From assembly GCF_000003815.2 (NCBI RefSeq), contig NC_049992.1, positions 15,820,060 through 15,884,059 of the forward strand: DNA of 64,000 nucleotides, written 5' to 3'. Positions 12,701-63,556 of this stretch are shown one piece after another; the stretch's first letter is position 1; the number at the start of each line of letters is the position of its first letter. The position numbers were made by a program, and so were the translations under genes. The DNA is from Branchiostoma floridae (lineage: Eukaryota > Chordata > Leptocardii > Amphioxiformes > Branchiostomatidae). The notes beneath the pieces were generated by a model, which saw only the letters and a list, made by a program, of their open reading frames with translations, did not search any database and had not been told where the DNA came from.

Positions 12701-15700
12701 GAATACAGAATAGTCACTGTGACAGGTGTTCCTTCTTTGTTTTTTTTTTGTCTATTGCAGTGTGTATTCGAAAACATCACCATAAACACTCGATAACTTG
12801 AGTTGTGACAGCACAACCAAAACTTTTTCATCGGCTATTCCAAGATCAGAGTGTTGTATCCTGCATCGTTATAGCATTCTAAGACTTGCTTTGTATTTAC
12901 TAGTATTACATTCTGTTGTCATTTATCAAACAAATTATTCATATACTATTTTCCAAACAATCCTGAAGATTTTGAAAACATTATGCTGTGATCACAAACT
13001 TAATGCCAGAAATTAGGATAGAATTCATGACTTTGGACAGTGCAATTTCTGAAATAAGCTTTTCAGCATTTCAGACCAAACATTGAATTTGAAATGAATT
13101 GAATTTTCTGTTTTGCCCCCAGCATCCCTGCTGCTATTAGGCAGGATGAGGCTGAGTACTTCTGCAAGGCCAGGAACTCTGCTGGAGAAACTAGTGTTCG
13201 CACTGTGCTGTATGTACGATGTAAGTATCATCTTTGTTGAAAGGCATTTTCTGTTCTGTTAGCTGCATTAGTTTACCAAGGCATCTTGAATAGAATTTTT
13301 AAAGCAGTCTGTTGTAAAAAGTTTCTGATAGTTAGTAGCAATATCTGTTTCAACATCTTGATCATGTACTGAAGCAAATACACAAACTCATAATGTAATG
13401 AAAACTTAAGTCTTTCATTGTTGCTTAAGACAATCATATACAATGTATCTTCTTGTTCAGCTGAGCACTCATGCTGTAAAACATGGCTTAATAACTGTTA
13501 CAGTAAACCGTAAACGTGTCACAGGCAATTTTCTTACTGGGCTTCATAAAATTGTGAACTGCAGCTTTATGCATTCAGAATTGCGACAATTTCTCCAACA
13601 AATAAGGTTTTACTAGTGCTTTGTGCTTTTCTGACTTGTTTGCTCCTTGGCAAAGCCCTAATGAATAAGACTGTAAATAATTTGTTTTTCCTGCTTTGTA
13701 CTAGTCTTGTTTTTTTTCCNNNNNNNNNNNNNNNNNNNNNNNNNNNNNNNNNNNNNNNNNNNNNNNNNNNNNNNNNNNNNNNNNNNNNNNNNNNNNNNNN
13801 NNNNNNNNNNNNNNNNNNNATCGATTTTTTCCTTTTCTGACTAGTGTTTGGAACTAGAGACTTAGTACAGGGTGATTCAGGGTACTATATTATTGACAAG
13901 GACATGTCAACAATTGAGGAATGCACACATGGCCATAAGTCACCATCCTGTGGCAAGTCGAATATGTCTGGTAGGAAGGCTGTGATTGGTCGTTTTGACT
14001 TTTGTGTTCTTGTTTCTGGTTGGTGTGCTTGGTGTGATATCAGTTTAGGAAGAAATCTGACATCAGCTGACAGCGTATGTAGTATGATGGTTAAGAAAAC
14101 AAAGCCTCTTGACAAATGGTAATTTAGGAAAGAAAAACTGCTTGAATGTCACATTCCATGTCTTTAAAAATGACACTTGTAAGGTTTGCAAATCATGAAC
14201 TGTTAATGGTCTTATTCTAATCCACAATGTGATGTATAAAATTGTAAAACATTGTTCATTGTTAAACTGATATCCCAGCCAAATAGATTCAATGTTAGGG
14301 CTAGCGCTGGAATAATGATTTAATTAGAAAGTTAGACCATTCCTTTGGCAATATCAATACAGAAATTAATATTTCTAAAACATGAGACGAAACCATTTCT
14401 ACTCCTTACAAATGTCACTTTTTAAGTACATGGAGACAGAGACTGTGGAATAAAGGTTTAAAGAAGTGCATCTCCAAGGACGTTGCTGCAATGAAGCACT
14501 TTGTGGACCTACATGTACATCTAACTTTATGCCTGGACAGAGACTGACTTGCTGCTTTTTTTACTTTCTTGTTACTGTTCTTGAGTGCCTGATGTACTGT
14601 GGTTATAAAGAACTATGCACTTGCATATGAAGTTGGAAGTGTAGACCAATAAACTAACCGTCAGAGTGAGCTAAGAGTGATAAAACAAGATGCATAATAA
14701 GCTTGTGATAACATCAGTACTATTCAGCCTTCTAAGAAAATTGCCTGACACTCTTATAATACCTTCCTTCTGATGTCTACCCCAACACCGGTTATTCCAG
14801 TTGAATGTTAAGAAAGACGTTTGACGATCTTCTTTTTCAGTACAAGGAGCACCCGAGGTCACAGTGAGACCAGAAGTGATGGAGGTACCCGAGGGAGAAC
14901 GTGTTGTGTTGGAGTGTAACGCGAGGGGCAACCCAACTCCCACGCTATCCTGGAACAAGTACAATGACCCCATACCTGTTGGAGCAGTGGAAAGTAATGG
15001 AGTGCTGACCATTCCTCAGGCGCGGTTGTCTGACTCTGGGCACTACGTGTGCACTGGGTCCAACAGTGTGGGAACGGAACAGAAGAGAGTGGAGCTGAGA
15101 ATTTCAAGACGTGAGGGGCTATTTGAGTTTATCTTCCTGAGACATTTCGCTATGTATAATCTGCCTAAATTTTCTATTTTGTAGGTAACAGTCACATGTA
15201 CCCGTCACTAGTGTTCTGGTTCATTGGGTACTGGTTAAGATTTAAAAACTGCCAATTTTAAGACGTAAGATTCTATTTGAGTTTATCTTCCTGAGACATT
15301 TTGCTAGTATGTGTAATCTGCCTAACTTTTCTATTTTGTAAGTGACAGTTACATGATTTTGTCACTAGTGTTCTGGTTCAGTAGGTATTGGAAAGACTTA
15401 GAAAATGCCAGTTTAGCTTTATTGGTGTTCGCAAAAAAATGATGAATGGCACAACAAATTGTTGTCCTCATTTGACCCAAGGCCTGGAAAATGCTAGTTA
15501 GATTAGATACTTAACAGAAAGAAATTAAGAAACATTCAAATGCTGTTGTTTTAGATAAAAGTTAACTCCCTCCCTTGCACCGATATTTTGAAGACTACGA
15601 AAATACAGAATCTTTTACATGTACTTAATGGACCGTTACTCATTACCCCCTTCCAGTGCTGCAGAGGCCGCCCACAGCTGCCATTGAGACGGTTGGTCCG

Positions 15701-21700: not shown

Positions 21701-24700
21701 AAGTGGAAAAGACTACATGCTAGCATTGCTTAAGAGATGTTCAAAGTGACTGAATTTGTGAGTTTGAAAGTTGGTAACCCCAATGAAGCCATGGATTATA
21801 AACTATGTTAGTAATCAAACTTCCAGACACATAGGCTCCTCTCTTCACCCTTTGGCATTGTATAGCTGCAGAAGTTTTATACTAAATGGCCTACTTTGAA
21901 TTAGCCTTGGTACCATCCAGGTAGTATTTCAGTCCTATGTTCGCTTCTGCTACCTGTCAGGAGAACTGCACATTCAAACCTTTTGGTGGTGACATCAGTT
22001 AATAAGCGAATTAAGGAATGGATTCTAGAGTGCTAGTTCGATGTTGAATACGGAACCAAAAGTATTAACTGACAAGATTTTGTTCTTGTGCATGCAGGCT
22101 CCCCACCCCCACGGCTCCGCTGGCAGAAGATCGGAGGTGCCCAGCCCCCCAGGTATCAGGTTCAGCAGGGTACACTTACTATCCCCAGTGTTCGCAGAGA
22201 GGACGAGGGAGAATACTCCTGCACTGCTGTGAACTATGCAGGGGAAGCTAGTCTGGCTGCAAGACTTGTGGTGCAAGGTACGGTAATAAAAGGGTTTATG
22301 TTAAGAAAAAGACACAGAAACAGCCTTGTGCCCAATAGAAGCTAGCTAGGCTGCAAGGCATGTGGTGCAAGGTACGGTAGTGAAAGGGTTTATGTTTACA
22401 ACAAAACACAGAAACAGCCTTGTGCCCATCAAGGCAATAGCTGTTAGTCTGACTGCAAGACCATAGAGTAACATGTCGGCTGGAACAGGAGAACAGAATC
22501 GGATGTTTTTGTTTAATTAATAAGGCTGTATGGATTGGAAAATCCACTCCTGTGATGAAGGGGAATAAAGACTTAGTCATGGGATTGCATTCTTAAGAAG
22601 TAACTGTCAATTGTTTAGTATCTCTTTAATGTTGCGTTACAATATCGGTGTTTGAGACAATACTTTACTTTTGGGACGATTAGCAGTGACACACATAGCT
22701 GAGATGGAAGTAAACCAGTCTGTTCTGTTACTCCCTGGAGAATAAATAATGTTGTTATTTTATCATTCTCCAACCTGATGAAATTTTCATGACAGTCTAC
22801 ATTTATGAATGTAAACAATATTCAAATACAATTCAATCCCTATAGCTATAACTGGATAAAAAAAAGGAGATTTACTTTTAGACGTTTTGAGTGACATCCA
22901 TCACTCTTCTTCAGCGTGACTAGAATGATCTGGCAAAACGATTCAATAATACAAGTATAGCTAAGTAGATGAACTGGTTGAACATGTCAATTCACAAATC
23001 TTATGGTGTCTTCTCATTCCCCCAGTGATTCCCATGGTCAGTATTGACCAGGAGACGATGACCGTCTCTCCTGGAGAGGAGGTCAGACTGAGGTGCGAGG
23101 CGGAGGGGACAGAACCCATCATGTACGAGTGGACGCGTGTGGACGGGGACATGAGCACGCGGGCCACCACCAGTGGAGGACTCCTGATCATCCAGCAGGT
23201 GACGACAGAAGACATGGGACAGTACAGGTGTCTGATCACCAACCCTGCTGGCATAGCGGAGGGCTTCACCAATATCATTGTCACAGGTGAGACAATTCTT
23301 ATGTTTGGCTTATTTACAGATGAACTACTAAGTCAAGTTATGTCATGTTATGCTGGTAGACATGTTTGTTTCTTTGTGCCTCTTCAGGAAATTTAATTTA
23401 ATTTGAAGGTTAGGTGTGACGGGTCCTTCGGTGTAATATAACCAGCTGCTGCCGTGCCGCGTGCCTGCGAAGCTGGTGTGTTACGCCAAAGGGCGGTTAT
23501 ACCGGCTATATAGATACAGATACAGGTTTCCTTTACAATGAATCAAGAATTGTTTTGGCCCTATGAGAAAATGTCTGCATTCTTTTTTTCAACTTGTGTT
23601 CTTCGAATTCTTTGATTATCATTCTTAGTCTTTTAGTGCAGGTTGTTAGTTTTGGCTATGAATGGCACGTACATAGGAATATCTCATTGTTCATGTTAAC
23701 TTGCAGCATCTTACATGCATGGCTTAACTTGAATCTGCCTAGAAACAAAATTCTAACTAAAGATCCCACAAATTTTGTTCACAGCACAACCCACAATAAA
23801 GACGATCTCCCCTAAGGAGTCGATGCGAGAGGCCGGCTCCACAGCTGAGTTTGGCTGTGCAGCTGCAGGGTTCCCTGTGCCCAGGATACAGTGGAGGAAG
23901 GAGGGAGATACCCTGCCTGAACAACATGTCATCTTTGGCAATGTCCTAAGGTTAGGGGATGAGATCAAGCACTTTATTATAGCTACAACGGTGTCCTTTT
24001 CATCATCATCATGGTTGCTGCATATCCTGAGGCAGGCTATCATTGTTCTCATTTGTCTTTTGCCAGCTGCTAGGCGTTGTTTTTAGGATATCTGACAATT
24101 CTCTTTATGTTTTAAGGCTATTTTGTTTCATGCATTGTGAAGGGTACAGTCAGATACAGATCTTTGATGCAGTACCCAGAAGTGGTGTCCTAGCCTTGCC
24201 CTGAGCAATGTAGTAAAAAAAGAAAAGATTTGTATACCTCCAATCATGTCATCACTTGTTTGTCTCCCCCATTTAATGAAGTTGTTTTTCTTATGCAAAA
24301 CTCTAATACACCAGTTATAGAAATGATTGCCCAGAGTACCCAGAAGTGGTGTCCTAGTAAAAAAAGAAAAGATTTGTATACCTCCAATCATGTCATCACT
24401 TGTTTGTCTCCCCCATTTAATGAGGTTGTTTTTGTTATGCAAAACTCTAATACACCAGTTATGAAATGATTTTTTTTGCCTCTTAAAATACCAATATTTT
24501 ATCTTGTTACTGTCCAGAATTCCAAATCTTAAGCCAGAGGATGCTGGGACATATGTTTGTGTGGCATCCAATGAGCTGGGGTCCACTGAAGAGAAGGCCA
24601 CCTTGAGTGTAGCTGGGGAAGGTAAGACATTCAAGAAACATACTGCTTGACATTTCAGCTACCACTTAATATAAAGATGGCTAACAAGGACAGGTGCTTT

Positions 24701-27700: not shown

Positions 27701-30700
27701 AGACATTTATTATGAACCAGACTATCACTCCTTTATACCAAGTATTTCTAGAGGTCATGAGAGAACTTGCAATAACAAATGCTACTGTTTTTCCTCCAGA
27801 GTTGATCCCGTACTTCACCCAGACTCCCCTGTCCTACATGACCTTCCCCACACTCCGTGAGGCCTACCTACAGTTTGACATTGAAGTGTCCTTCAAGCCT
27901 GAAAGCACAGAAGGTAAAGAGGTTATATATATCTTTCCAAATGACTTAATTACAGTAGGGTAATAACTTGTAAGTTTAGTTATGGATAAAAGATAGAAAG
28001 AAGGGACACACACTTGAAGTGCACGTACTTTCAAATATCAAACATGACTCAAGGCCATTAGTCTTGCACCATGTTTTTTATTGCTGTGGTAGAGAAAGGT
28101 GAAAATACCTACAGTAGATATAGATGCCTCTAAAAGGTAGAAAAGACTCCAACTTTCACTAATGTAACGTTACTTCCTTTGTTGTATATTTTCATTAATG
28201 TACTTCCTTTTTCCAGGGTTGATTTTGTACAATGGACAGAAGAACGGAGGTGCAGGTGACTTCATGTCGTTGGGACTGTCGGAGGGGTACGTGGAGTTCC
28301 GCTTCGATGTGGGTTCTGGAGCGGCCGTCATCCGTAGCAAGAACGCCCTGGAGCTGGGCAGGTTCCACACTGTGGTGCTGAAGAGGTAGGGCATGGGAGT
28401 TATCTATATGTAACGCTAGTTCACCTTTATTCGGGGGGTAACCTTTATCCGTAGTATTTAACACCGGGCTATTTCGGGATATCAAGTCTACTGACGGTGG
28501 TCTCAAACTGCATTATAATGAAAAAAAGCAATTTGATCGTCTATCTACGTGATATCCCTAAATATCCTGTTTTTAGGTACAACGGATATAGGTTACCCCG
28601 CGAATAAAGGTGAACTACCGTTACATCACTTATTGATTTTATGGAAAAGGGAAAAATGTTACCTCAGCTGTACATTTCTTATAAATCAAACAGTAACACA
28701 CAAACATTGTGACAAATATATTGTAATGAATGGCAGGACCCACACTGTGGTGCTGAAGAGGTAGGGCATGGGAGTTATCTATATGTACATCACTTCTTGA
28801 TTTTATGGGACATGTACCTGTACATTGTTACCTCAGCTATACATTTCTTAAAAATCAAACAGTATCACACAAAAATTGTGACAAAACAAATATATTATAA
28901 TGAATGGCAGGTTCCACACTGTGGTGCTGAAGGGGTAGGGCATGGGAGTTATCTATATGTACATCATATATTGATTTTATGGCAAATGCACATTGTTACC
29001 TCAGCTATACATTTCTTAAAAATAAAACAGTATCACACAAAAATTGTGACAAATATATTATAATGAATGGCAGGTTCCACACTGTGGTGCTGAAGAGGTA
29101 CAATGTAGGGCATGGGGGTTATCTACATCACTCTTTTATATCAGTTTTATAGGAAATGTTGTACATTGTTACATCAGTTCTACATTTCTTAAAAATCAAA
29201 CTGTATCACACAAAAATTGTGACAGATAGATTGTAATGAATGACAGGTTCCACACTATGGTGCTTGGGGCTTGGGGTTTATCTGCATCACTTTTATAGGA
29301 GATGTTGTACATTGTTACTAGTACATCAGCTCTAATTTTTTTGTTTAAATCAAATGGTATCACACAAAAATTGCGACAAATATAATGAATGAACAAAATT
29401 TGTACAGGTACAATCATAATTGGGGCTTGTTACATGTATATCACAATGAAAGTCAATGTCATGTTAACATTGTAGTTAGAAGAAAATTTTCTTTCATGAA
29501 ATCTGTCAGGCCTAAAGTGTTAGATTTTTATGAGTACAATAGAGAACAGCAGTCACAAAAATTCTATTATTTATGTGAACAGGAACAGCAGGTTTGGTTC
29601 CCTGTCTGTGGACGGTCTCCCGGCCGTTAACGGCACGTCTCAGGGCAACTTCCGCGGGCTGGACCTGATCGAACCTCTGCACGTGGGCGGGGTCCCTGAC
29701 TACGCTGCCATAGCAACAGCCTCTGGGTTGAAATCTGGCTTCATTGGTAAGCTTTCTCCTTACTTTGTCTCTCAATAAACATCTTTTATTGTACAATCTT
29801 AAATATTCATCTTGTCTCTCCCCTAACTTTCACCTATTATACTTATAGGCTGATACCAGTATAAAATATTGTGTTAAAGTCTGACTCAGCAAAAAGGTTG
29901 AATATGTTTCTTACAAGAAAGCTAGTACCCCTACTTCTGGGCACTCATTGTCTTGTATGTTTGTGTTCATCTCAAAACATCTTAGTTCCATGTCGGTACA
30001 ATCTTGCAAGTGTTGTGTTCAAGTCACTAGTACAAAACAACTAATCCATATGACCTGTTTGTGAATTGTAGGCTGTCTGAGCAGACTGGAGATCAGTGCT
30101 GCCAGTGTAAACCTGGCCAGTGATGCCATCAACATCGTGGGTGTGTCCGACTGTCCCACCTGCGCCGACAAACCCTGTAAAAATGGAGGAACCTGCGTGG
30201 AGGCAACAACGGAGTATGGCTTCAGGTCAGCAGTCTTGATGAAGAAAATTAAACCTCTCCTGATAGATACAAAGTTATAGTGATATTTGTATGAGATGGT
30301 TTGTCTATTTTTGAGATGGAATGGCCTTCACTATTGTTTATCTCAACTCTTATCTTATCTACTCTTTATTTTATTGTTGGTTTACCGCAGAAGATCTGTC
30401 AATCAGTTTTCTCCACCTTCACTTTTTTTCTGTTTTTATTAGTGTTTTACTTAGTGTCATGTCTGCTTCAATTAGTGTTATGTCTGCCCATTTTTCTCAA
30501 CTGTATTGTAAATAGCATGGCAGAACACTGACAATATAGGTTGTTATATGCATTGTGTTACACGTAAAGTTAGCAGTAAAAGATAAACTTATTGTATAGT
30601 TTAGTTTACTCAGTGAATATTGAGTGTGTGTGAGTGATGTTTAATGATCTTTGTCTTATTGACCTTGAGCAAAGTTGAATGGCCTGGTCAGTGTTATTAG

Positions 30701-33700
30701 TCATACTGCCAATTGATTCACATATTTTGTTCACAGAAAAAAGCAGGATACAAAAAAAAATCAATGATGATAACAAAGATCAGTGGTTGGTGAATGATAT
30801 TTTAGTTGAATAGGCTGACCTCGCCCGCTGCAAAGTGAAATGTTAAAAAATATGCATTTTGTGAAGTTCATATACTGAAAACCATTATTTTACAAAATGC
30901 ATGTACAATATCTTACAACAAACAAAAACATTACTCTTTGTATTTGAATTATAATATTAGAGACATGACAAAAAATTCTCATTATTGGCTTAAACTTGAA
31001 ATTCTACCCTAATTTAGAAAGATTTTCTACCCAAAATGTGTGGAAATGAGTTTTTCCTTCCGTATGACACCACATCTTAAGACTACAATGGTCTAAGCAC
31101 CGTAAACAATGATCTCAAACCCCTTCTAGATTTGATTCCCGCTAAAAGTCACAGACGCAAGGAAGAATTATATGAAAGCTTGTGCCAATTGTTTTCATAT
31201 TCAACATTTTTGTCCAGTGTAGAAATTCCATCCATTTTCGTTCATTCTGAAACTCTCCCGTTATCCACCTTATCAGAAATGTGCCAATACAGCTTGTCCC
31301 ATAATTTCTTCTTTTACAGTTTTTCTAAACATTATCTTCCCTGTGTGGAAATCTTGTCCATTTCATCCACTGTCACAATCTTTCATTGCCCATTCATTGG
31401 TTAACACTAGTTGACGGTTATGATAGTTCTAAAGATATAGATACAGAAGAGTTTTGATAAACACATTCCCCCTTTACAACCTGCCCTCTTGTGTCCCCCA
31501 GATGCGAGTGTCCTGAGGGTTACAGTGGGCGGACGTGTGAAGGTGTGGGAGAGAGGTGTTATCCAGGTGCCTGTGGACCAGGTGGCAAGTGTAACAACGA
31601 TCCTGGCCCCACAGGATTCACCTGCTCATGTCCCATTGGCAGGACAGGTGTCAGGTGTGGCACAGGTGAGAATACTGTAAATGCATTTAAGTTCGCGGGG
31701 ATTTTATGTCGCGGTAGCGGCAGAAAGGACTTTTCGCGATGGTTTTAAGTTCGCGGTAACACCATAGACTGCAGTGTAATACTATAGTACAAAAATGTTC
31801 GCTGTGGTTTTAAGTTCACAGTGAAGTGGTCACCACGAAAACCGCGAACATTAATCCACCTTGAACATTTCTGCATTTTCATGTGTACAGTACTGTGAAT
31901 TTTTCACAAAAACTTAATCTTGCAGTAGAAGAGGAAAGGGCGTTTTCGCAGTGTTTAATTTATGCAGTTAAAAAGATTCTAGTAAAGTAGTTATACATTA
32001 AAAAATCAAATTCACCGTTTCATGAATTCCCGGAGGAAAGCATTTAGAACTTACATGTACTTTTTGAACTGTTTTTCTCCTCAGGTATTGTGATTGTTGA
32101 GCCAGCCTTCAGTGGGAACTCCTTCATTGCCTACCAGACCATGCAGAACGTCCAGCGACAGACCCGCATCACCATGGAGTTCAAGTTGGACAGTCTTACA
32201 GATGGACTGCTGCTGTTTAACGGGCAGAGGCTGGCTGGTAGTGGGGACTTCATCTCTCTCGCAGTAAAGGATGGAGCAGTCGAGTTCAGATTTGATAGTG
32301 GATCAGGTACAAGGAACTTCTGAATCTAAGAATCTTTTTATGTTGTGATCTTTTTTACCATTTACTACAAGGTAGAGTCAATAGATGTTGTGTAGCACTA
32401 GTAGTTACTGTAGTAAAATAAGTAGTAGTAATAGTAGTATCCAGTATTTGATTATACTGTTGGGGTCCCTGATACAGGGTTAGACAGCAGTCGGCTAGTC
32501 TTCACACTGCGCTTCCATGTGGCTCTGTCCAGTGGGTTTACCCTAGTTAGACTGCACATTTTGATGTCTCTCCTAACACATTCCATCCAAGATTTCCTTT
32601 GGTCTCCCATGACCTCTGTAGCCTGACAATGTGTTACCAATGTAAACAAAGGTTGATGTGTTGCACAGTTTTACTGTAATTTCTGTTGTGAGAACATGGC
32701 TAAATTTTCTACTCTTTGTATACCACAGGTCCGGCCGTCATTAGGAGTTCTAAGAATGTGAGCTTGGACACCTGGCACACCATCAAGGCTGAGCGAGACC
32801 TCAAGGATGGGTCCTTAAGTCTGGATGGACTGGAAGCTACAAAGGGCCAGTCACCAGGAAACACTCAGGTACAAAATAATTTGGCTGGTTATCTTATAAT
32901 ACCGAGCGATACAGATATCTTCTTTATCTGACAGGATGTGAACTTGAGACAAGGGCATAAACATATAGCAAAGGCCTTTCATTCATTTATTCATTGTACT
33001 ATCTAGAAAGTGCCAGTATTCATAACGTAGCATTAGCATATTCTGAAACTGTGTTATCAGAATGTACATGTAAATCTTCTTTGTCTGACAGGGCGTGAAC
33101 TTGAGAATGCCTCTGCACTTGGGAGGGATGGAGAGCTTCGACGACCTTCCTGACAGAGTGGGAGTCACTAAGGGCCTGTTCGGCTGCATTGCTTCTGTGA
33201 GTAACTAACCTTTTCTGTCATAGCAATGCAAGTGTGTTTATACTCGTTATTCCTTCTTATATTGGTCACTCCATAAGCAAATTGAAAAAGGTCCTATTGG
33301 TACATTGTATATGATGTTTATTGATTATAGTTATTTACTTGTAAGTAAAAAACTACTACTCATAGCAGCTAAATTTCTATCTACTACCTACCTACCTACC
33401 TACCTACCTAGCTAACAGGAAAAATTAAGTCATTGCATGTACATCTAAGCACAATACAGTAGTCCATAATTATGCATTTATGGAGACTACCTTCCACAGC
33501 TTTTCGATGTGAGATAAGTATACGAGGGACGTTCAATAAGTAATGCCCCTGACCCATTTTCCATAGCAGGAGATTAATGAAACTTGGCACAGTTATTAGT
33601 CCTTTTCTACATAGGAACCACCCAGAGTTATGCATTTCTCCCATCGTTTGATGCAACTCTGGACACCGTTTTTGTAGAACACCCCTGGTTGATCCTCCAA

Positions 33701-45203: not shown

Positions 45204-45244
<41 letters not shown>

Positions 45245-45245: not shown

Positions 45246-45249
45246 GTTT

Positions 45250-46294: not shown

Positions 46295-46300
46295 TATAAA
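46295..46300 (+). promoter_or_regulatory. TATA-like box upstream of the VWA gene
   Basis: TATAAA sits 238 bp upstream of the ATG at 46533. A possible intron acceptor (TTTTCATTCCAG, ending 46505) just before the start codon suggests that part of the 5' UTR may be spliced. This is position and motif only. Confidence 0.25.
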
Positions 46301-46532
46301 CACAGTTCGGTGGTAGAACAGGTCAAATCGCGATCAACCGAATAAAATCAACAGAAGAGAAGGTCATAGATAAAACAAGTTGTTTTTTATAATCTCATGT
46401 TTACTAGAGTCGACGCTTCAGTCACCGTCAGGGACACATTTGTGAGGGGTAGCTGACGTTGTTTAGCTTCTTAGTCGTAGTAAGTACAATCAGTTTTCAT
46501 TCCAGGTCCTCTTACAACCGGGCTCCAAGAAA

Positions 46533-49500: not shown

Positions 49501-52004
49501 TGAGTTCACTGGTGTTTTTCCGAGGTTTTAATAGATATAGCTACACTCTGCTGGCTGGCTGCACACCTTGGGCTGCACATATCATGTAGTGTTTAAGATG
49601 CTGTGAAAATATCCCATTACGTCCATAACATAAGTAACGCCAATTTTTAACGGCACGTATGCCTCAAATATGATTCAAGAAAGAGTCTCATAATGCCCAT
49701 CGCTGTATGCTGCTAGTATAGTAATTTCAACACATACGGAGTAAAACATTTATCATCATTTCAAACTACTACTCCCACACACATTCTAGTACTCGTATGA
49801 TGGGATATTAGTTATATTCAGTAGTGAAGAGAAAGACGGGGATTTGACGGTTATCGTACTTTTTGGAGAGTCAGTTAGGGTTTGGTAGCGGTACAGAAAA
49901 GTAAGGTCCAGGTCCGGTTGAGGTCCAGAAGATCAGGTTCTGGACCCGAACCTGGACCTCATTCAGTGTGTGAGAACTTGTGAATGGACTCAAAACAATG
50001 ATCCATTTCGCAGCAAAACAAAATCCGTTTTTTGGAGTATTTGACTCCCACTGGCTTTTTAAAATCCTACAAGGCTGCCTCTGTACTACTGAATGTAAAA
50101 CTTGGTAGATATGACTATAGACTCTACTTCGCTCTTGTTATATATTTTCCTCGATCGGTAAGCCTCAAAACGTGTGAATGGGGGGAGAATGCCTGATCAT
50201 ATATTCTGTCCATTTTCCAATAGGTCCAACATCCGGCCCAACGATTTTTTCAGGTCCGTTTTTTCCGGACCGGTCCAATAAGAAAAACCGGTTCTGTATC
50301 GGTACACCGTACCGGTATCCACCCCTAGAGTCAATAAAACTTCTCCCTCTCCAGGTGGCAGTGATGACGTACGGGGGTGGGGGCGGAAACTGTATGCCTG
50401 AGATGGACATCACGCTGGGCGGGTACACCAACCAGACTGAGCTGGTAGAATTCCTCACGGCTAACATCAGCTATACCGGCGGGCTCACACGGACTACAAA
50501 GGCACTGCACGCCATGCAACACAGGGTACCAGCATAACTAGGATAAAGAATTAATCTAATTAACGTTATATGTTTATTGCAACCTTATTCCCGAATCGAA
50601 GCCAAATTGCAAGTACACGTATGATGACCTTACCTTAGACCCTCCCGCAACACTGTTGCATTGGTCGACTCGTCGAGCATATTTTCTCCAAAGGTAGCGG
50701 TCTTGAGCAGCTACTGCCATGCTTTCCATGTTGTTTAGCCCCATTTTCCTTCCATCACGTATGATGAAATATATAAATAAAAAGGACGGACAAACAATGA
50801 AGAACAATATAGCACGTGACACTTGTACATGTAGCTTAAATGCTGACTCTAAATTTGAACTCTTTTGGGTTGGTGGAAGGAAGTCGGAGAATTACGTTGT
50901 TTTTTTTTTTGTAAACTGGGTATTTTTTTGTAAACTGTAACTGGTGGTACCGGTGGAAAATCTACATTCTTTATTTTGCGTATTAAAGATATGATATCCA
51001 TTGTATTGGTTATATTGCAGTAGCTATGTATCTTCGAATCCACCAGTTGATGATTGTTCATTCTTGCGTTAACGTTCTAATACAGGTTGATATTATTTAA
51101 AGTATGTACATACACATATGCCCACTGTGTTTCCGGACAGATTTCTTACAGAGAGAACATGACGAAGATAGGAGTGATCTTCACCGACGGAAGGCCGCAG
51201 AGTTCGGTTACTGCCAGGGTAAGAACCCCTCTTAAATCTAAGCAAGTTGATATCATATTACGTCGTAATGAGACATTTTGCTTTCTTTCCGCGTTCAGAT
51301 ACATTTTCTCGTGGGTGGCTATTCCAGAAACTAAAGACATGATTTTAGGCCTTCTGGTGATGTGTTTCATATGCATATAACGCGTACGGACGTTACAGTC
51401 AAAACTGTCAAAGAAGGTCTATGTGGATGGACAGGATTCTTATACCTGAACAGTGTGTAAGGGACCACCAAAAAGTAGCCATATTAACCAGGTGGCCCTT
51501 CATCTAAATGTGGTCACTCTTACAGGTTTGACAGTATTCTGAAATACACGTGTCCTATTTGCCCAAGAAGAAAATTATTTCAGGACTATTATATATGGAG
51601 GTGTGAGGATCCCACACGATACCATACCTGACAATGTGTATATGTACACGTCGCAGTCATTTTTCTCCCCCATTGTAAGATAACACAAAATCTAAAACCT
51701 ATTATCTTTTGTAAGGCATGCAAGTCTTATTGACTAAAGTTTCATCACCACAAGAACATGAGATTCCCAACGTTTTACCCAGAACAATGTCGAAACGGAT
51801 GAGCTGCTGGCAGAGGAGGTGGAGGAGGCGATGTACGCCGGCTTCGGGCTGTACTCCGTGGGGGCCTCCAGAGTCGACGCCTTCGTGAGTACTGACGGAC
51901 TGGGCATCCTCACCAACTCTACTGCTGACCGTGTTCTCACCATCAGGGACTTCCCGCCAAAATACCTGGCCTTCAGGATCAGGCTCGACAACTGTGGTGC
52001 GTAA
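46533..52004 (+). CDS. Secreted protein with seven MopE-like/EF-hand-like acidic repeats and a C-terminal VWA domain
   Basis: Exons: 46533-46596, 46990-47883, 49342-49478, 50355-50525, 51141-51218, 51783-52004 (1,566 nt, 521 residues). Residues 1-20 form a signal peptide (MWWKSVLFISTMAVAMRGAD). One 894-nt exon then encodes seven units of about 42 residues. Each has a leading Cys, a GDGVDNDCDGRIDEE-type loop, and an NGIDDDGDGLIDED-type loop. The DNDCDG loop matches the bacterial MopE copper-site motif; the DDDGDG loop resembles EF-hand, dockerin and thrombospondin type 3 calcium loops. A VWA domain follows with a full MIDAS: DGSSS (DxSxS), the Thr in GGLTRT, and the Asp in IFTDGRP. The frame closes across all exons. 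The protein is probably extracellular, cation-binding and adhesive; ligand and metal are unknown. It may instead end through a further exon at 52547 (see findings). Confidence 0.85.
46990..47883 (+). other. Seven-unit metal-loop repeat array in one exon
   Basis: Units begin at the Cys of CIESPSFPGDG, CVAPQNVPGDQ, CVESPSFPGDG, CIAPQNVAGDQ, CIESPAFAGDG, CFGAAQTYGDG and CSLSETLPDDG. Each holds two Cys (leading, and in DNDCD) and two acidic loops, so 14 candidate cation sites. The first five alternate between an ESP(S/A)F type and an APQNV type, showing growth by duplication of a two-unit block. Codons differ synonymously between units, so the protein repeats are kept alike by selection rather than by very recent copying. 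Two loops are off-consensus: DNDCDLLVDEE in unit 1 and DNDCDYRIDEE in unit 7. Confidence 0.88.
48100..48270. repeat. Fragment related to the TTAAGTTCGCGG repeat, in VWA-gene intron 2
   Basis: AACCGCGAAGTGAAAACC, CCGTGAACAC and CGAACTTAAATGCA resemble the inverse of the 31670-31862 element. The rest of this intron (47884-49341) shows nothing else I can name. Confidence 0.35.
49880..50300 (+). repeat. Dispersed repeat B, copy 1 (VWA-gene intron 3)
   Basis: It starts with a small palindrome (AGGTCCAGGTCCGG...GAACCTGGACCTC). It continues through AACAATG-TCCATTT, TTTTAAAATCCTA, TTCGCTCTTGTTA, GTAAGCC-CAAAAC and GAATGCCTG, ending in GGTCC-CATCCGG. The same order of words recurs at 63570-63985, so this is a repeat family in the same orientation. 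Confidence 0.7.
51395..51540. mobile_element. MITE with TACAGTCAAAC-type ends (VWA-gene intron)
   Basis: The left end (TTACAGTCAAAACTGTCAAA) is matched at the right by the inverse, TTACAGGTTTGACAGTA. Internal CCAGGTGGCCC is shared with the sequence at 56920-57000, which also starts TACAGTCAAACCTGTCTATA. Confidence 0.6.
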
Positions 52005-54215: not shown

Positions 54216-54217
54216 AA

Positions 54218-54510: not shown

Positions 54511-54824
54511 CTAGTGTTGGAGAGAGATGGCTGCAATATGCTGTATTTGCTCTCAAGCAAATGTCGGCCTTTCTAGTTGGTACTATTTCACTGCATAAAA
54601 CACTGTACTGCAACAAATTTTGAGTGACTCATTTTGATCCCTAGGCCTTGCCAATTCAAACAGATTTGTACATTAACATTGCTTTTATTCTCTTCTCCTC
54701 GGAGGCCTTTGTATATTTCCCAAATTTATTTATTTATTTATTTATTGATCTTTAGGGTAGTCCCTTCAGTTAACGTAGTAACTGATTTCCAAGGGAGCCC
54801 TATATACATGTTCGCACATGTTCG

Positions 54825-55225
54825 CACAACGACGGGTTATACCGCCCCTTTCGGGGTGACACACCCGTCCGGGTGAATGATGTAGATCACCATGTGGCTG
54901 ATACGAGACAGAGGTCGCCAGGCCTCCATCCGGGTGATTTGTAGTGAATCACCAACTTCCGACAGAAGGATTTGCACCAACGCACACCGCACCATCGCAC
55001 GTGTGGGGGTTCTTTAACGTGCATGGGGTATGGCTCTCCCCTTACACGGGACCTCCATTTAACGTCCTATCCGAGGGACGACTCATTTTTCACTTGAGTA
55101 AAGTGAGGAAAGTCGTGTAAAGTGCCTTTCCCAAGGGCACAAGACCGGCAACACCGCAAGCGGATTCGAACCGGCGACCTCTCGGTCACGGGCCGAATAC
55201 ACTACCACTGTGCTACGCGGCCCCA
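54825..55225 (-). mobile_element. tRNA-derived SINE, reverse orientation
   Basis: On the minus strand the head reads GTAGCACAGTGGTAGTGTAT (A-box region) and GCCGGTTCGAATCCGC (B box). The body follows with TGCCCTTGGGAAAGGCACTT and AAATGGAGGTCCCGTGTAAG, then CACGTTAAAGAACCCCCACA. Related but worn bodies lie at 3790, 20860 and 59478. A (TTTA)n tract at 54727-54745 lies just beyond its tail end. It is the best-kept SINE in the window. Confidence 0.85.
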
Positions 55226-55576
55226 CATGCATCAAATTGACTTTTAATATAAACCAAATATAATCTCTATGTAATGCTGAGAAGGCAGAAAACAAAGACA
55301 AGTGTCAACATACACATTAGAATAATTACAATCAGTAAAAAGACATTTTATTTCATTTTAACAAGCTTTTGAATTTTCAGTTTTCTTTTGCATTTTATCA
55401 TCAACCTTGTCAGAACCTCTTGATTGTAAATGATTCTAAAATTTTGGGACATAAAGACAATAAACAAAGATGACCTCATTCACATCACCTATCAATACAC
55501 ATGTAACATAACATTAGCTAAAGTAGTTAGTTTATGTTAGTGATTAAAGTTACATGCTTTTGACTTTATGTGCATA

Positions 55577-55909
55577 TCAGGGCTCTAGCCAGCTCGAAAT
55601 TTTTGTCCGTCAGTCGATTCCCATTGTCGCAAAAATTAAGTTAGAAAGACGGAACTGAGACCTTGAAAAATGGGTTTTTAATGAGATTACCGTATGCAAA
55701 AGGGCGCCGACACACTAAGTCAACAATCATAACAATAGCAAAACAAACAGTGTGTGGCTTTCCGTCCGTGGACAGCGTCCCCAAGCCGCCTATAGCTTCC
55801 ACCAAGAATTTTTGTCCGTCAAGGTTGACGGATTGGTTTAAAAAAAATTCCGCCACACGCAGCAAATTTCTATCAATTGACGGAAAAACAGACGCTGGCT
55901 AGAGCCCTG
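55577..55909. mobile_element. hAT-type MITE with intact 8-bp target duplication
   Basis: The terminal inverted repeat is CAGGGCTCTAGCCAGC at the left and GCTGGCTAGAGCCCTG at the right. It is flanked by exact direct copies of GTGCATAT (55569-55576 and 55910-55917). CA-G-ending inverted repeats and 8-bp duplications are hAT hallmarks. It is 333 bp and non-coding. Confidence 0.92.
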
Positions 55910-56341
55910 GTGCATATATCAAGTGTCCATAACAATAGATCAGATGCTACTAGTACTTCCTTCCATCAAAATAAAGTATTTCTTTTGTAAATACAAACAG
56001 TAACATCAAAATAGATTTAATAACACAGATCTATGTACCTAAAGTCTTGTTACAGTTTATATACGCAGTGATCAATTTGGCTTCAACCCATGGAACATAT
56101 GGCACATTCATTTCTTCAAGTCTGTTGCAATAAAATATTGTCTTAGTTTATATCTAATAATGTTTAGTCAGTTTGTTTCACTCCATGTACAGATGCCCTG
56201 AGTTTGATACTGATTTTTATGTAAACATAGACAAAGATGTAATCGTGATGCATGATCCATTGTACTTATTTAATATTATTGTACTTAATATTACCATTTC
56301 ATGAATTTGAAATCCCACCATGGTTTACAAGTGTGCTAAAT

Positions 56342-56603
56342 TAATCTCCAAGCAGATCTTGCGTGGCATAAGACAGTATCATGCATAAGCTGGGGAAGGA
56401 NNNNNNNNNNNNNNNNNNNNNNNNNNNNNNNNNNNNNNNNNNNNNNNNNNNNNNNNNNNNNNNNNNNNNNNNNNNNNNNNNNNNNNNNNNNNNNNNNNNN
56501 TTGTAAATTGTCCTTCGCGTGGCCAATTTACTCCTCTGCCGGGTAAACTCCTTCCCCAGCTTATGATACTGTCTTATGCCACGCAATATCTGCTTGGAGA
56601 TTA
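56342..56603. mobile_element. Long-armed inverted-repeat element with an assembly gap inside
   Basis: The left arm (TAATCTCCAAGCAGATCTTG to AGCTGGGGAAGGA, about 57 bp) is the inverse of the right arm at 56549-56603. The 100 N lie between them. TA at both ends is consistent with a TA target. It lies just downstream of the PAF-acetylhydrolase stop. Confidence 0.8.
56401..56500. other. Assembly gap (100 N) inside an inverted repeat
   Basis: Exactly 100 N, located between the arms of the 56342-56603 inverted repeat. The hairpin probably defeated assembly; the true length is unknown. Confidence 0.9.
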
Positions 56604-56725
56604 CAAAATGTTGAAAAAAAAAAAAAATTCAGATATACCCTTGTAAAATCGTCAACATTTTCCAGAGCACTTTGACCAAGCAATGAACTTGGGTACACAG
56701 TTCTTGTACCACGTGAAGAGAAGAG

Positions 56726-59700
56726 TTACAACTTGGCCTCATCAGGAGTGGGCTTGTCCACACTTGTGTCCACCTGTTTCTCCTTGGCTGGTCTGGGGTC
56801 CAGTTTGACGTTTGTTCCCTGGATGAGATGTTCCCCCTCCAGTACAGTACTGTTGTAGTCATCTCCTGGTAAGTCTGAGAGGATGACACAAAATCTTAGA
56901 CTCAAGTTGTTATAAGTACAGTCAAACCTGTCTATAGAAATGTGGCCACTATAGACAGGTGGCCACTATAGAGAAGGTCTCATTGATGTTTTACTCCGAG
57001 TGGGTACCCTAAAATAGATCCGAGCCAAAACATAAACGGCTGCATGGACGCGTGTTTTTAGCAGTGAGAAATTCCCTTTTAGCTAGCGGAACTGATATCA
57101 AAAGTTAAATTGGTGACAGCTTGTATGTAACTGAAGAAATTAGCAAGTAAAGTTTTGCAGCCGCGCGCTAGGTCGGAGGTACACAGTCCCGGGTCCTGAG
57201 TGGTGCGGTTGTACACTAACAGCGAAAAGGTGCCTTTTTTTGGCATTGACTAATGGTAGTTTGTAATTGCTATAAAAAAAGAACCTATGTATAGTTCACG
57301 TTGGCAATTTTTTCCCACGATATAGGGTAAATGCGCTCAACATAGAATGAAAAATATGCTAAAATTTTACTTCATTATCTTCATTATGAACACGCCCATG
57401 TAAACCACGAATTACAACATAGAAGTCTATGGGAAGACAAAACTCATCAATTGACCAAGTAATATACTAATAAGCTACAGCACTGTTGTAGTGATCTCCT
57501 AGTAACTCTGAGAGGATGACAAAAATCTTAGACTCAAGTTGTTATCAGTATATGGAACTGGTAATGATCAAGCTTTCTTTTCTACACTCCCATTTGATTT
57601 TGCATCCTTCCAAATATTTGGGAGCTCTTACAAAATTATGAATGAATAAATGAGAAACCTTAACTGTATATTTATGCTCTTACAAGCTACATTGTAAGTA
57701 TATGTCAGCTATCTCTTGCTACATATACAATGACCAATGTATACTAGTCTGTACAGGTCTAACTTTTCACTTCATAAGATAGTTATAAATGTAGGGACAG
57801 ATGAAGTTTATGGTACATCTAATTGTTTAAGAAATATGAATTTTTTGTGCTATTCAAATATGAAAAAAAACTTGTATCTAAATAAAAAAGAGTTTGTTTT
57901 TGTTGTTGAATAAAGTACTGTAGTAATTGTCACCCATTCACATTACAACAACATAAAACAGATTAGTTACCCAGATGTTTTGCTAGGAAGGCCAGGGAAG
58001 CTTCATTGTTGATGTCTATGGCTACATGTGGGTCTAGCGCTCCTCTGCTATGGACTCGTGTACCAAAGAACTTTCCAAACAGGAAGGTGAAGTCTGACTG
58101 ACTCTGGTGAACAGTCCCCCTGTCAAGAAAACGGAGATCATACAGTCACATAAAACGTAAAAGTTTCTTGTTTTTGTTTGCTAATTATCTATTCACCAGT
58201 CATTTCATATTTGATTTGACTTTCTATGTTTTCTTGTTTCGGTGTCTACAAGCCCACGTGGGCTGGATGACATTCAGTGGCAAGACATGTTACGCCAGTT
58301 AGGGACACTAACGATGACTCAAGATGGGAATTGGCCACGAGGACAATTTAATGAAGACTTCAACAGTGCATACAAATGGAGACAAGATGGCGGACGAAAC
58401 GCACGAGGGCCCATGACCCGGAGGTCAAGGGTCATGACCTAATCCTAGCATACCATGTTGGCATTAAATAAACATTCATTCATTTGTTCATTCATTTACT
58501 GTGAATTTTAATGACCAGTACTAGTCTGTTGTTTTCTCCTTTACGAATGAATTAAACTCAACAATCACATTTAAACTTGATAATGCAGCAGAAACAGATA
58601 GTGGTTTGCTGAAAATACACTGTCTCACTTTATAGTGATCATCTTGCGGTCGACCCCCTCCTTTCCCATGAGTCTGTTCATGCGTACGATGTTCCCTGGC
58701 CAATGGAAGGCCTCCGTGTTGATGAAGAGGATTGGCTGGCTGATCTGTGGGTACATCTCTCTGTCTATGGGTAACATCCAGCCGTCCAGTATAACGGCAC
58801 ATCTGGGGAACATGATACACTGTTATCGTTGAACCAGGTTTGGGGTACATAGTGTACAGGGCACAGTTAGATTTAACAGACTACGCTGGTACAGCCACAT
58901 CCAAACAACGGAGGAGGAGGAGTGGCCCAGGAAGATCATAGAATTTTGCATGGAGGGAAAGAACCCTCGTGGTCGACCTTGAAAGAGATGGACGGACAAC
59001 ATAAGGGAAGACATACACTTCCTCAACCTAGCTGCCATCAGGCCCCCTCATCTACGTGCAAGCACGTCTAACCCCCACAAGATGGGGAACGACAGACGTT
59101 AAACCGGAGAGTGAGTGACTGTTACCGTTGCAACCCAGTACACATGTACAGCAGATATCCACTTGTATGATGTTGCCCCTTGTGACCAGTATCAGAAGGT
59201 CATTGCCCCATGTACAGTGCATATTAGAGTCGTTTGGGGTTGTTTGAGGTCATTTGAGGTGTTTAGGCAGACTCACCAGTATAGCTCAGGTATTGAACAA
59301 TAATGTACTGAAACAAATCATTCCCAACATACTGATGCCTATACTTTAAATTAGCTAAAACATCTATGCCAGGAGGCAGCTTAACAAAATAAGACAAACT
59401 TTGTGTCTTTGTAAAAGTTGCAGAACTTATAACTTGTGTACATTCTCACATCATGATGCAGCAAACAAGCCTGTACAATCACAGTGCCACGGTGGCCTTT
59501 TGGTAAGGGCTGTTGACTGAGGACTTGGAGGTACTGAGTTTGAATCCCTGAAAGTGTGGTCACAATGTTGTGCCCTTGGGAAAGACAATTTCAAACCGAC
59601 TCAGATATAAATAAGTAGCACTACCTAGCTTTGACTAGGTTTATTTCTAGAATAGGATGTTAAAAGGAGGTCCCGTGTTTGAGGAGAGGTACACATCAAG

Positions 59701-62622
59701 CATGTTGAAGAACCCACCAAATTCATCGATAAGAATAGGGGGTCCTTCCCAGTGTGAGTGGATAAAATAAGTCTGTCTGGATATGCATCTTGCACTGTCC
59801 AGTACAAACTTGGCATGTTACATAATGAGGCAGTTTATGGGTATGCAATACAAACAAACAATATAATATTGGGATGGAGGGAACTGTCTTTGCCACATCC
59901 TGGACATTTTTTAGCTCATTTAGGCATGCCTAAAGATGCCGAAACTTACATAAAAGAGGAACTCTGCGATCTACGTCTCTTAGACACTTCACACTCGAGA
60001 CAGAATGAGTCACGTGAGCCAGAGGGCAGAGGTCATGGCTCGTGCGCACTAAATTATCTGATTTGCGCATTTTAGCCCAAATCAACACAATGACCATGAG
60101 TGTTGTCACCCACCTTAACCTGGGATCTTTGTAGAGAGAGACCAGGGAGGAGGCACCACCAAAGGAGTGGCCCATAGCTGCAACCCTGTCCAAGTCCAGC
60201 TTATCCTGTGATAAATATGCAAACTTTATCACTCTTTTTTCTAACATAGCCTTCTGCGTTCCACAACCTTCTTTAATTCTTCAGTAAACGTTTCGACAAC
60301 CATCTGTCGGCTTCCTCAGTGCATGATAAAACGACTACTATCGGTGCTATGTGAACTAAACATGTCAGTCCAAACCAAAAGTGACCTATTGTGATGTAAT
60401 AACTTGAAGTGGAAATGTTCTCAAACCTGATAAACTACTTCTCCTTGCCACATAGCTTTGATAGTAAGTGTGTTATTATGCACTGAGGAAGACGACAGAT
60501 TGTTGTCAAAACGTTTCCTGTAGAACTAAAGAGGGTTGTAAAATGGTACATTCCTAGATCATACTATCATTCTGATTGGTGGAGACAATGCTGACAAAAA
60601 TTTCCTACAATGCAACAGTGTATTAAATCAAGGAGTTTTTTAAATCAAATTTACAGATATCTCAAAAGTCACCTTAAGAAACAAAAAGGTTTCTGACAAA
60701 AATTTTTTTTACAACATGTCGGTTACCCACCTTGAACTGTGATAGGTCCATGCCTGTCTGGCACAAGTTGTTGATGTTATTGCCCTGGTCCATACTGACC
60801 AGAAGGTCCAGCATGTGACCCAGCTCATCTGCACGCTGGTGGACCTGGTGTACAAGCAGATGTAAGGAATGTCAGAATCAGTAATTTACTACTATTCATA
60901 ACAAGCTGCTTCTTCCTTACATCACAAGCTATTTGCCACCAGAAAATGAAGACCATATCATGTCCAGGTCAAAAGATACAAAAGTTTTGCTGAAGTACCA
61001 AGGTCACATACTAGGGGGCTCAAAATTGACATTGACTTTTTTCCAACAACTATGTACATACCAAATATCATTGTAATCCATTAAGAGGCTCTTGAGTTAT
61101 GCTGACTACAAAAATCCAGAAATACAAATAGACACACACTCACACACACACCCACACCCAAAACAATATCTCTATTTTCATGGTATAATTACATGGCAGA
61201 GATGTTGACTGATCTGAAAGCAAACTTGTTTTGAAACAACATACAAAGTTGAGACCACCCCTTACCTGTTTATTCCTAACAGGATATTCGTCTCCCTCTG
61301 GTTTAGGAATCATGGGGACCCACTCTACTGTTTGAGTTTTCCCATCGTCCTCTTGCCTGATCACATGAGTTGCCGAGGCTGAACCATCTCTGTAGATACA
61401 GGGGCACAGCGGATGAAATAGAATATCATCTTCTTATCCGGAGATATCTTAACACATGGTATTACCCCGTAGGATGGAAGTAGTCATCAAAAGGAACAAC
61501 TGAAGTGTGAACATGTTTAACCCCTGGATCAGGTAGCAACAGATGGTAAACCAGGGAGTGTGTGTCTTTGTTTGTTTGTTTGTTTGTGTGTGTGCACATA
61601 TGTGCTTGAATGTGTGGTTCCTTCATTTAACAAAAAGCAGTTTCAGAACCTTTCAAGTTTAGCATGAAAAGGAAACAAGCTGACTTCAATGAAAGACTGT
61701 GGTGCTTTAAATCACTATCAGTAGAGGACACACACAGTACTTTGGATGACAAAACATTCAAATCAAACAGCTATGGCTCAATGGCTTACTATTATACACT
61801 TTGTATGTTTTATTCTCATAGTGGCTCTTCTAAGTAATGATATGGCATAGCAGATCATTGCCCTGATGTTGGATATTCATTAGCTTACCACAACTGGTCT
61901 AAAAGACTATATTAAATCATAAATGAGACATACCTGTGTTCAATAGAAGCGACTAGATACCCCCTTGATGCCATCTCTAAACATACAACAGTGTACGTTG
62001 TCCTCTGTCCGCCCAGTCCATGGGAGAAAACTATCACTGGGAACTTGGATGGAGTTTCCTTCTTTAAAAATGGGGCATTCGGGATGGCTGGGACCTTGGG
62101 ATTACCTACAAGGAGGAAAAAAATAAAAATGGAAGATAACTATTACCACTATAGACTCTAACTCTAAGCCTACAGAATTTCAATAATTTTCTCTATTCTA
62201 AATATGATGTGGGCAATGTCAAATGTCCAGATTTCTTGACTCTTTTTGCAGGTGAGGGATTGACTAAGAAGGATAGTAGATAGGGCAGTGGGGTTGGTGT
62301 GAAAATGGATGCAGCTTGAAAATTCAAAACGGCTTTTTAAAATTTGTTTCTGGCATCATTCTTAGCAGATTACCACTTTTTTTCTGACAATAACACAAGT
62401 ATGAGCTTCTTTACATTTATGTCACCTTTCCAATAGCCTTTAAACACAATATATATACCTACCCACTATCAATCTGCATAAAGAGTAAGTCCATTTTGGA
62501 ACACCAATGAACTTGAAGTAGCCATCTAAGTACTGACGACTTGGTGTCCATGTTGGCCAATCATGCTTCCTCTGTCTGATGTCACATGGTTCAGTTGGGT
62601 AGAACAGCCTCAGAAACACACC
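56726..62622 (-). CDS. Platelet-activating factor acetylhydrolase family (PLA2G7/PAFAH2-like), 3' part of gene (8 exons)
   Basis: Exons in transcript order: 62463-62622, 61934-62105, 61266-61389, 60731-60844, 60120-60205, 58629-58802, 57971-58119, 56726-56874 (1,128 nt, 375 residues to TAA at 56726-56728). The enzyme family hydrolyses the sn-2 acetyl or short oxidised acyl group of PAF-like phospholipids. Start of the visible part: GVFLRLFYPTEP. FSHGLGG is probably the oxyanion region. The triad is Ser in GHSFGG (exon 60120), Asp in ILDGWMLP (exon 58629) and His in GTVHQ (exon 57971). EHRDGSASAT, FINTEAFHWPGNI and AFLAKHLDL also match the family. All phases join. The N-terminal exons lie beyond the window, so secretion (PLA2G7) versus cytosolic myristoylation (PAFAH2) cannot be decided. 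The C-terminal tail is acidic and lysine-rich. Confidence 0.93.
57476..57550 (-). repeat. Duplicate of the acceptor and start of the last PAF-acetylhydrolase exon
   Basis: A 75-bp copy of 56843-56918, containing about 30 bases of exon start, the acceptor AG and the upstream intron. Shared words on the + strand are ACTGTTGTAGT-ATCTCCT, CTGAGAGGATGAC and ATCTTAGACTCAAGTTGTTA. On the minus strand this is a decoy acceptor 5' of the real one. Confidence 0.85.
58850..59105 (+). mobile_element. 3' fragment of a non-LTR retrotransposon (LINE)
   Basis: One + strand frame reads RFNRLRWYSHIQTTEEEEWP, RKIIEFCMEGKNPRGRP, a stop, then KRWTDNIREDIHFLNLAAI. This is the typical conserved tail after the reverse transcriptase of many LINE families (RLRW-GH, GRPRKRW-D). 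The in-frame TGA at the GRP-KRW join marks it as dead. It lies in the PAF-acetylhydrolase intron, opposite to the gene. Confidence 0.75.
59478..59770 (+). mobile_element. Diverged tRNA-derived SINE
   Basis: The head contains GGTGGCCTTTTGGTAAGGGC and GAGTTTGAATCCC (B box). The body has TGTGCCCTTGGGAAAGACA, AAAGGAGGTCCCGTG and TGAAGAACCCACCAAATTCA, then CCCAGTGTGAGTGG. Its parts match the SINEs at 54825 and 20860. Confidence 0.7.
60250..60540. mobile_element. Inverted-repeat element with GAAACGTTT hairpin ends
   Basis: Left CAACCTTCTTTA, AAACGTTTCGACAACCATCT and GTCGGCTTCCTCAGTGCAT pair with right ATGCACTGAGGAAGACGACA, GATTGTTGTCAAAACGTTTC and AAAGAGGGTTG. A small related hairpin, GACGTTTTGAGTGAC...GTGACT-like with CTTCTTCAGCG, lies at about 22880-22920. 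Confidence 0.75.
60905..61160 (-). repeat. Dispersed repeat, inverse of the 45250-45960 family
   Basis: It contains ACCAAGGTCACATACTAGGG, CAAAATTGACATTGAC and ATGTACATACCAAATATCAT, then GAGTTATGCTGAC and a (CACA)n tail. The word order is the inverse of the element near 45270-45370. It lies in the intron before exon 61266-61389. Confidence 0.65.
61561..61600 (+). repeat. TTTG/TG-rich simple repeat
   Basis: Short TTTGTTTGTTTG-TGTGTG tract in a PAF-acetylhydrolase intron. Confidence 0.7.
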
Positions 62623-63556
62623 CTACAGGTCAAAACACATGGTACAGTTGGGTAGAACAGCCTCAGAAACACACCCTACAGGTCAAACACAAGGTTCAGT
62701 TGGATAGAACAGTCTCAGAAACACACCCTACAGGTCAAACACATGGTTCAGTTGAGTAAAACTAAATTCTCAGAAACACACCCTACAGGTCAAAACACAT
62801 GGACAGTTGGATAGAACAGCCCCAGAAACACACCCTACAAGGAAAAATACATGGTTCGTCACGCAGGGTAGAGGAACAGCCTTAGAAACTCACCCTACAG
62901 GTCAAAACACATGGTTCAGTTGAGTAGGACCTCAGAAAGACACCCTACAGGTCAAAACACATGGTTCAGTTGAGTAGGACCTCAGAAACACACCCTACAG
63001 GTCAAAACACATGGTTCAGTTGAGTAGGACCTCAGAAACACACCCTACAGGTCAAAACACATGGTTCTGTTGGGTAGTAACACAGAAACACACCCTACCG
63101 GGTAAAACACATGGTTCAGTTGAGTAGGACCTCAGAAACACACCCTACAGGTCATAACACATGGACAGTTGGGTAGGACCTCAGAAACACACCCAACAGG
63201 TCGAAACACATGGACAGTTGGGTAGGACCTCAGAAACACACCCTACAGGTCAAAACACATGGTTCAGTTGAGTAGGACCTCAGAAACACACCCTACAGGT
63301 CAAAACACATGGTTCAGTTGGGTAGTAACACAGAAACACACCCTACAGGGTAAAACACATGGTTCAGTTGAGTAGGACCTCAGAAACACACCCTACAGGT
63401 AAAAAGACATGGTTCAGTTGAGTTAAAGACCTCAGAAACACACCCTATCAAAACACATGGTTGTCATGTTGGATAGAAGAACAGCCTTAGAAACATACCC
63501 TACAGGTCAAAACACATGGTTCAGATGGATAGAACAGCCTCAAAAACAAAGCCCAC
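62623..63556 (-). repeat. Minisatellite (50-53 bp units) built from the acceptor and start of exon 62463-62622
   Basis: On the minus strand each unit carries an acceptor (TTTTGACCTGTAG) followed by GGTGTGTTTCTGAGG and ACTGAACCATGTG. This equals the real boundary at 62622/62623 plus the first codons of the exon (GVFLRLFYPTEPC). I count about 17 extra units. Those nearest the exon are 53-bp and keep the full GGCTGTTCTACCCAACTG; distant ones are mostly 50-bp and read GGTCCTACTCAACTG. Regular spacing and sequence identity fit unequal exchange. Confidence 0.9.

Follow-up and report, generated by a model that had tools for sequence, protein, structure and literature searches.

Mirage-type duplications across exon–intron boundaries in a Branchiostoma floridae window and in a sample of the genome

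Duplications joining the end of an exon to adjoining intron sequence cross six exon–intron boundaries in a window of 64,000 nucleotides of Branchiostoma floridae DNA (assembly GCF_000003815.2, contig NC_049992.1, positions 15,820,060 to 15,884,059, forward strand) and five more in an independent sample of the genome. Roughly 4–5% of exon edges (about 1 in 20) carry such a boundary repeat, a rate that extends only roughly to the whole genome, since the sample comprises 63 predicted exons and a single gene supplies three of its five cases. Our preferred reading, to which we assign a probability of about 0.65, is that these repeats, known as “mirages”, result from DNA-level tandem duplication at roughly random places and are tolerated at exon edges through proximal splicing. 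Local duplication is frequent in the genome and, on this reading, roughly random in its placement, and an ordinary tandem duplication would sometimes happen to begin in an exon end and finish in the adjoining intron. Duplications crossing one edge would survive because the proximal site is still spliced and the extra copies leave with the intron; frame-breaking ones within exons would presumably be lost. Some duplications would later grow as minisatellites, the copying step being presumably unequal exchange or slippage.

The class is already known, and mirages have so far been reported gene by gene. What is new here is a set of further members, a first rough rate and a test of the idea that boundaries seed duplication. 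That rate, found with no coverage peak at the edge, suggests that mirages arise for the most part as a side effect of frequent local duplication combined with splicing tolerance. Even a rough rate makes the questions of seed bias and intron gain countable within one genome.

Six boundary repeats and the exons that carry them

The first host is a perlecan-like gene on the + strand, which the gene-finder model places from 778 to ~40,163. A domain scan of its pieces returned Laminin_B, laminin EGF, Ig (I-set) and laminin-G domains, and we take it to be a perlecan from the domain order. The second, on the − strand at 56,725–62,622, encodes a plasma-type PAF-acetylhydrolase (PAF-AH; PF03403, E 5e-107); its joined exons match a solved PAF-AH, 5jad, presumably the human enzyme, over residues 1–352 of 377 (E 1e-86). 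The exons concerned are as follows.

14841..15110, + strand: Ig exon of the perlecan-like gene, donor end (15100-15110) inside the repeat
22098..22277, + strand: Ig exon of the perlecan-like gene, donor end inside the repeat
28217..28385, + strand: laminin-G exon of the perlecan-like gene, donor end inside the repeat
33092..33196, + strand: laminin-G exon of the perlecan-like gene, acceptor duplicated (sixth case)
56725..56874, − strand: last PAF-AH exon, acceptor (56874, or 56865) duplicated
62463..62622, − strand: PAF-AH exon starting GVFLRLFYP, its first 40 bp belonging to the repeat unit; 3′ end placed manually

The repeats at their edges are listed below.

15100..15414, + strand: donor mirage 1, 154-bp tandem duplication in two copies across donor 15110/15111, 11 bp exonic
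22244..22428, + strand: donor mirage 2, 94-bp unit in two copies across donor 22277/22278, 34 bp exonic
28357..29393, + strand: donor mirage 3, units of ~164–173 bp across donor 28385/28386, 29 bp exonic
32917..32949, + strand: acceptor mirage 4, 33-bp copy (91%) of 33074-33106, 15 bp exonic
56843..56918, − strand: acceptor mirage 5, exon-proximal copy, acceptor 56874, 32 bp exonic
57476..57550, − strand: acceptor mirage 5, distal single copy, 75 bp, 92%
62583..63556, − strand: acceptor mirage 6, ~50-bp unit at acceptor 62622, 40 bp exonic, the true acceptor plus 17 further copies
63962..64000, − strand: acceptor mirage 6, further unit copy, a remnant at the window edge

All five repeats that the initial annotation had placed at splice sites (three perlecan-like donors and two PAF-AH acceptors) are present. 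Acceptor mirage 4, absent from that list, was found by self-alignment 157 bp upstream of its original (score 51). Unit sizes in the window range from 33 to 173 bp, and the copies at 32917 and 57476 are single and spaced rather than arranged in tandem arrays, the two copies of mirage 5 lying 557 bp apart with a dispersed repeat in the spacer. By eye, donor mirage 2 has a decayed third copy reaching to about 22470. In donor mirage 3 the boundary recurs at 28732, 28906 and 29069, and a decayed one was seen by eye near 29240. Between the PAF-AH array and the copy at the window end lie ~400 bp (63557-63960) that are for the most part unrelated and include a stretch rich in GGTCCAGGT; the array of the ~50-bp unit may extend beyond the window edge. 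Chance similarity was ruled out as a source of the repeats, since the boundary-spanning pieces have BLAST self-scores of 107 to 979, and scores stayed at or below 28 when the window was randomised three times with a first-order Markov model.

The exon ends were assessed by homology, phase and domain limits. At 28385 the join is gapless in two neurexin LamG alignments, and a further one opens a single-residue gap next to it; at 33092 the joined protein aligns with an agrin LamG domain with no gap. Homology thus speaks against wrong exon ends in PAF-AH, as it does at the two LamG joins (28385 and 33092). The Ig-exon ends at 15110 and 22277 were set from frame, phase and domain ends: both exons close Ig domains and are phase 1 at both ends. 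For the start of the last PAF-AH exon the gene finder favoured 56865, and both AGs lie within the duplicated block. Together with the local duplications, these observations uphold the earlier claim that, in each of two unrelated genes, the repeats cross splice boundaries that are probably genuine.

Splicing and sequence history of the copies

Reading on in the incoming frame from any decoy site that was tested (24 of 24: 17 at 62622, five across the three donors, and one each at 56874 and 33092) runs into a premature stop. At 62622 the stop falls inside the extension for 16 of the 17 decoys, and for the remaining one it follows a frameshift into the exon. Compared with the true exon, the PAF-AH copies carry 22, 17 and 23 differences at codon positions 1, 2 and 3, respectively; of the 61 changes that were scored, 21 are synonymous, with 26% expected at random. 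They drift like non-coding DNA. The stops and the even spread over codon positions rule out the decoys as coding material, and the stops together with the non-coding drift indicate that a normal mRNA needs the exon-proximal site. That site would accordingly be the one in use, as judged from reading frames: the first donor or the last acceptor. Exon definition would be the natural reason for such a proximal choice.

These figures also bear on whether selection maintains the repeats, be it as decoys that regulate splicing or for the protein variants that they could supply. The further acceptor positions of mirage 6 run from 62675 to 63499, and 16 of these 17 copies retain their acceptor AG, as selection would have it. 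However, the copies match the true unit at 89% on average over its intronic part and at 85% over its exonic part, which makes this retention unexceptional, and the even codon-position differences and the stops behind all tested decoys also speak against such selection. We regard it as very improbable.

The units themselves could have been copied from transcribed or spliced sequence, as had been suggested earlier; reverse-transcribed RNA, a lariat or a splicing intermediate would be examples. The inclusion of splice sites and the location of the copies within transcribed genes would suit such a route, but in all six window cases exon and intron are joined as in the genome, with no exon–exon join seen among them, and local duplications also occur between genes and within introns off the edges. 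Copying from RNA is not needed to account for copies that hold intron and exon in genomic order, and we give it only a few chances in a hundred.

Some of the history of the units can be read from insertions. The first unit of mirage 3 contains a 209-bp inverted-repeat element (28413..28621) with 40-bp ends that match at 37 of 40 positions and a TA target duplication, and copies 2 and 3 have an empty site where the first unit holds this element. The empty sites indicate that the duplication at 28385 is the older event; most likely it came first and the element was inserted later. The genome (513,431,437 bp in 431 contigs) was searched with two of the units, and the match counts should be considered lower bounds. 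For the 62583 unit, nine genome matches were listed, all at its own locus, and for the 56843 block the 40 scored among 1240 candidates gave no match to the block itself outside its own two copies. A dispersed-element origin is therefore unsupported for these two units, with own-locus matches only among those scored. The 62 bp that adjoin the 56843 block (56915-56976) are a dispersed repeat with a CACTATAGACAGG motif and at least 38 further genome matches, from which it appears that an insertion probably parted the two copies of the 56874 acceptor.

Other elements were noted in the same regions. On the − strand, 55151-55222 matches tRNA (Rfam RF00005, 39 bits) and by eye resembles the head region of a SINE derived from tRNA. 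An inverted repeat seen by eye at 56331-56600 surrounds a 100-N gap at 56401-56500. The perlecan-like intron between exon ends 33196 and 34137 holds a fragment of a Mos1/mariner-type transposase on the − strand (33411-34043; HTH_48, E 1e-9).

Cases in the genome sample and known counterparts

The independent sample consisted of 25 stretches of 10 kb (L009-L033), with coordinates fixed before looking. Sample exons were our own gene-finder predictions; 69 were confident and 63 were kept after the removal of six that were copies of repeats or were coding repeats (L014 930, 1086, 1690 and 1846; L015 761; L017 8820). Local direct duplications with a score of at least 40 cover 12.5% of the 238,126 sampled bases. 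A duplication with an intronic partner crosses 5 of 126 edges in the sample (4.0%) and 6 of 120 in the window (5.0%). The sample cases are the following.

L012: gene with a methyltransferase domain, one edge
L014: gene without a Pfam match, three edges, arrays of 152, 108 and 93 bp
L030: gene with RPEL motifs, one edge, 50 bp, ~26 copies

In the L030 case TRF gives only ~8 exonic bp, and the exon, which is rich in Glu, is a less certain prediction. Within L014, the same gene (116-8841) shows a weaker fourth mirage at acceptor 8262 (8243-8333, period 37), detected by TRF only.

Passages of PMC3087553 describe “mirages” in the amphioxus globin genes BflGb6 and BflGb9 as minisatellites spanning exon–intron boundaries, call their mechanism unclear and propose them as a route to intron gain; they also cite an Adh3 mirage with somatic instability and two references for other loci. 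Passages of PMC3902484 add PGBD5 and troponin C. The amphioxus Adh precedent mentioned in the initial annotation is thus real, being cited in both sources. Among the matches listed, we found no genome-wide survey of mirages in the open-licence literature.

Our cases share the following features with those described: in passages of both papers, a tandem unit of 10 to ~160 bp spans an exon–intron boundary at donors or acceptors. At the six window sites and five sample sites a unit likewise lies across the boundary with copies in the intron. Both 5′ and 3′ boundaries are affected (seven donors and four acceptors, window and sample together), and the tandem units measure tens to ~160 bp (33–173 bp here), the single copies at 32917 and 57476 excepted. 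Undisturbed regular splicing, length polymorphism and somatic instability also belong to the described class; as to the first, the decoys tested here would give stops. The hosts differ, the perlecan-like and PAF-AH genes in the window and the methyltransferase-domain, Pfam-less and RPEL-motif genes in the sample being new.

Two further systems are comparable. Human internal tandem repeats in segmental duplications, in the portion of PMC2812944 concerned, are likewise minisatellites across exon–intron boundaries that can alter gene structure. They differ in giving novel introns and variants in recent paralogues, whereas the tested decoys here carry stops and no change of mRNA is proposed. Intron gain from a tandem-duplicated exonic AGGT segment, as treated in a portion of PMC3443670, also multiplies splice-site sequence; here, in contrast, the segments span existing boundaries and the copies lie inside existing introns, with no new intron seen.

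Placement of duplications relative to exon edges

Window counts were based on 60 exons (46, 6 and 8 in the three gene regions) with 120 edges and on 57 modelled introns with a median of 533 bp. Weak exons of the perlecan region (11863, 33704, 35602, 36011, 36949 and 37552) and false pieces of the third gene (63587, 63292, 62894 and 54865) were left out, and the PAF-AH exons were set by hand (62463-62622, 57971-58123 and 56725-56874). The 11 genic, non-coding local duplications of the window exclude a between-gene pair (43535), a coding duplication (47001) and another that lies past the PAF-AH gene (54187). The listing of crossing cases, made over 242 boundaries, returned 29 cluster-edge rows, with certain clusters entered twice, once from each flanking exon. 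Coverage counts used 246 boundaries.

It had been argued that random duplication would rarely include a boundary. The counts do not support this: with these introns and units of 33–173 bp, ~1.9–2.8 of the 11 duplications are expected to cross one. Six do, against 1.9–2.2 expected under uniform placement (P 0.005–0.009) or 2.8 when larger units are used (P 0.036); for the five originally noted cases alone, P is 0.02–0.04. Note that this window test is post hoc, the window having been chosen for this pattern.

A proximal-edge test avoids the counting of copies. It takes clusters whose exon-side end reaches no more than one unit into the exon or falls in the nearest 150 or 300 bp of the intron. 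For window and sample together, with TRF periods, there were 11 crossings versus 5.3–7.6 expected (ratio 1.45–2.08, P 0.008–0.09); with BLAST-derived unit lengths for the sample, the expectation was 5.8–8.1 (P 0.014–0.13). The window alone gave 6 versus 3.0–3.9 (P 0.056–0.15). Pure randomness is not comfortable with a placement ratio of 1.45–2.08 and with six crossings in the window versus about two.

The excess of crossings, both in the combined test and among the 11 genic window duplications, favours the exon–intron edge as a preferred seed, at which a composition step, an R-loop or chromatin edge, or nicking would raise the rate of tandem duplication. Three results stand against such seeding. 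The sample alone is non-significant, with 5 crossings versus 2.3–3.7 expected (1.35- to 2.2-fold, P 0.055–0.29). There is no coverage peak at the exon edge in window or sample (5.0% and 4.0% of edges, respectively): intron points 15–400 bp from exons fall in duplications in 6.3% of cases in the window (1998/31,916) and 6.5% in the sample (2481/38,109), although these figures count every copy and could hide a roughly twofold excess of originating events at edges. Finally, the exonic extents do not look fixed: the fraction of the unit that is exonic has a seemingly uniform distribution (mean 0.43, KS P 0.45, n=11), which argues against a breakpoint fixed by the splice site. From the idea of a preferred seed, what survives is a possible bias of up to about twofold; sample edges do not stand above intron points.

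We therefore hold to roughly random duplication with splicing tolerance, which can account for most of the boundary repeats, and consider seeding possible at perhaps one chance in four. It is similarly doubtful that lancelet exon–intron edges are mild (about twofold) hot spots of tandem duplication, with about one edge in 20 bearing duplicated splice sites at any time. If they were, introns would find ready-made splice sites for sliding and gain constantly available across the genome.

Exon midpoints were also scored. With the partner required to be non-exonic, duplications covered none of 60 midpoints in the window and 1 of 63 in the sample; with no partner filter, they covered 1 of 60 and 10 of 63. 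Ten of these 11 unfiltered cases lie in coding-repeat exons (one in the window and nine in L032), and the other is in the L014 mirage exon. The low filtered figures are partly a product of the partner filter, so the loss of duplications inside exons is something that we infer.

VWA-domain and MopE-type repeat exons, belonging to one gene or two, occupy 46,506–51,996 of the window. Among them is a predicted 894-bp exon (46990-47883) with ~126-bp coding repeats that match the MopE-type metal-binding motif (PF11617, E 2e-17), which we take to be a bacterial-style motif, here in an animal gene; it lies near the VWA exons at 49342-51996.
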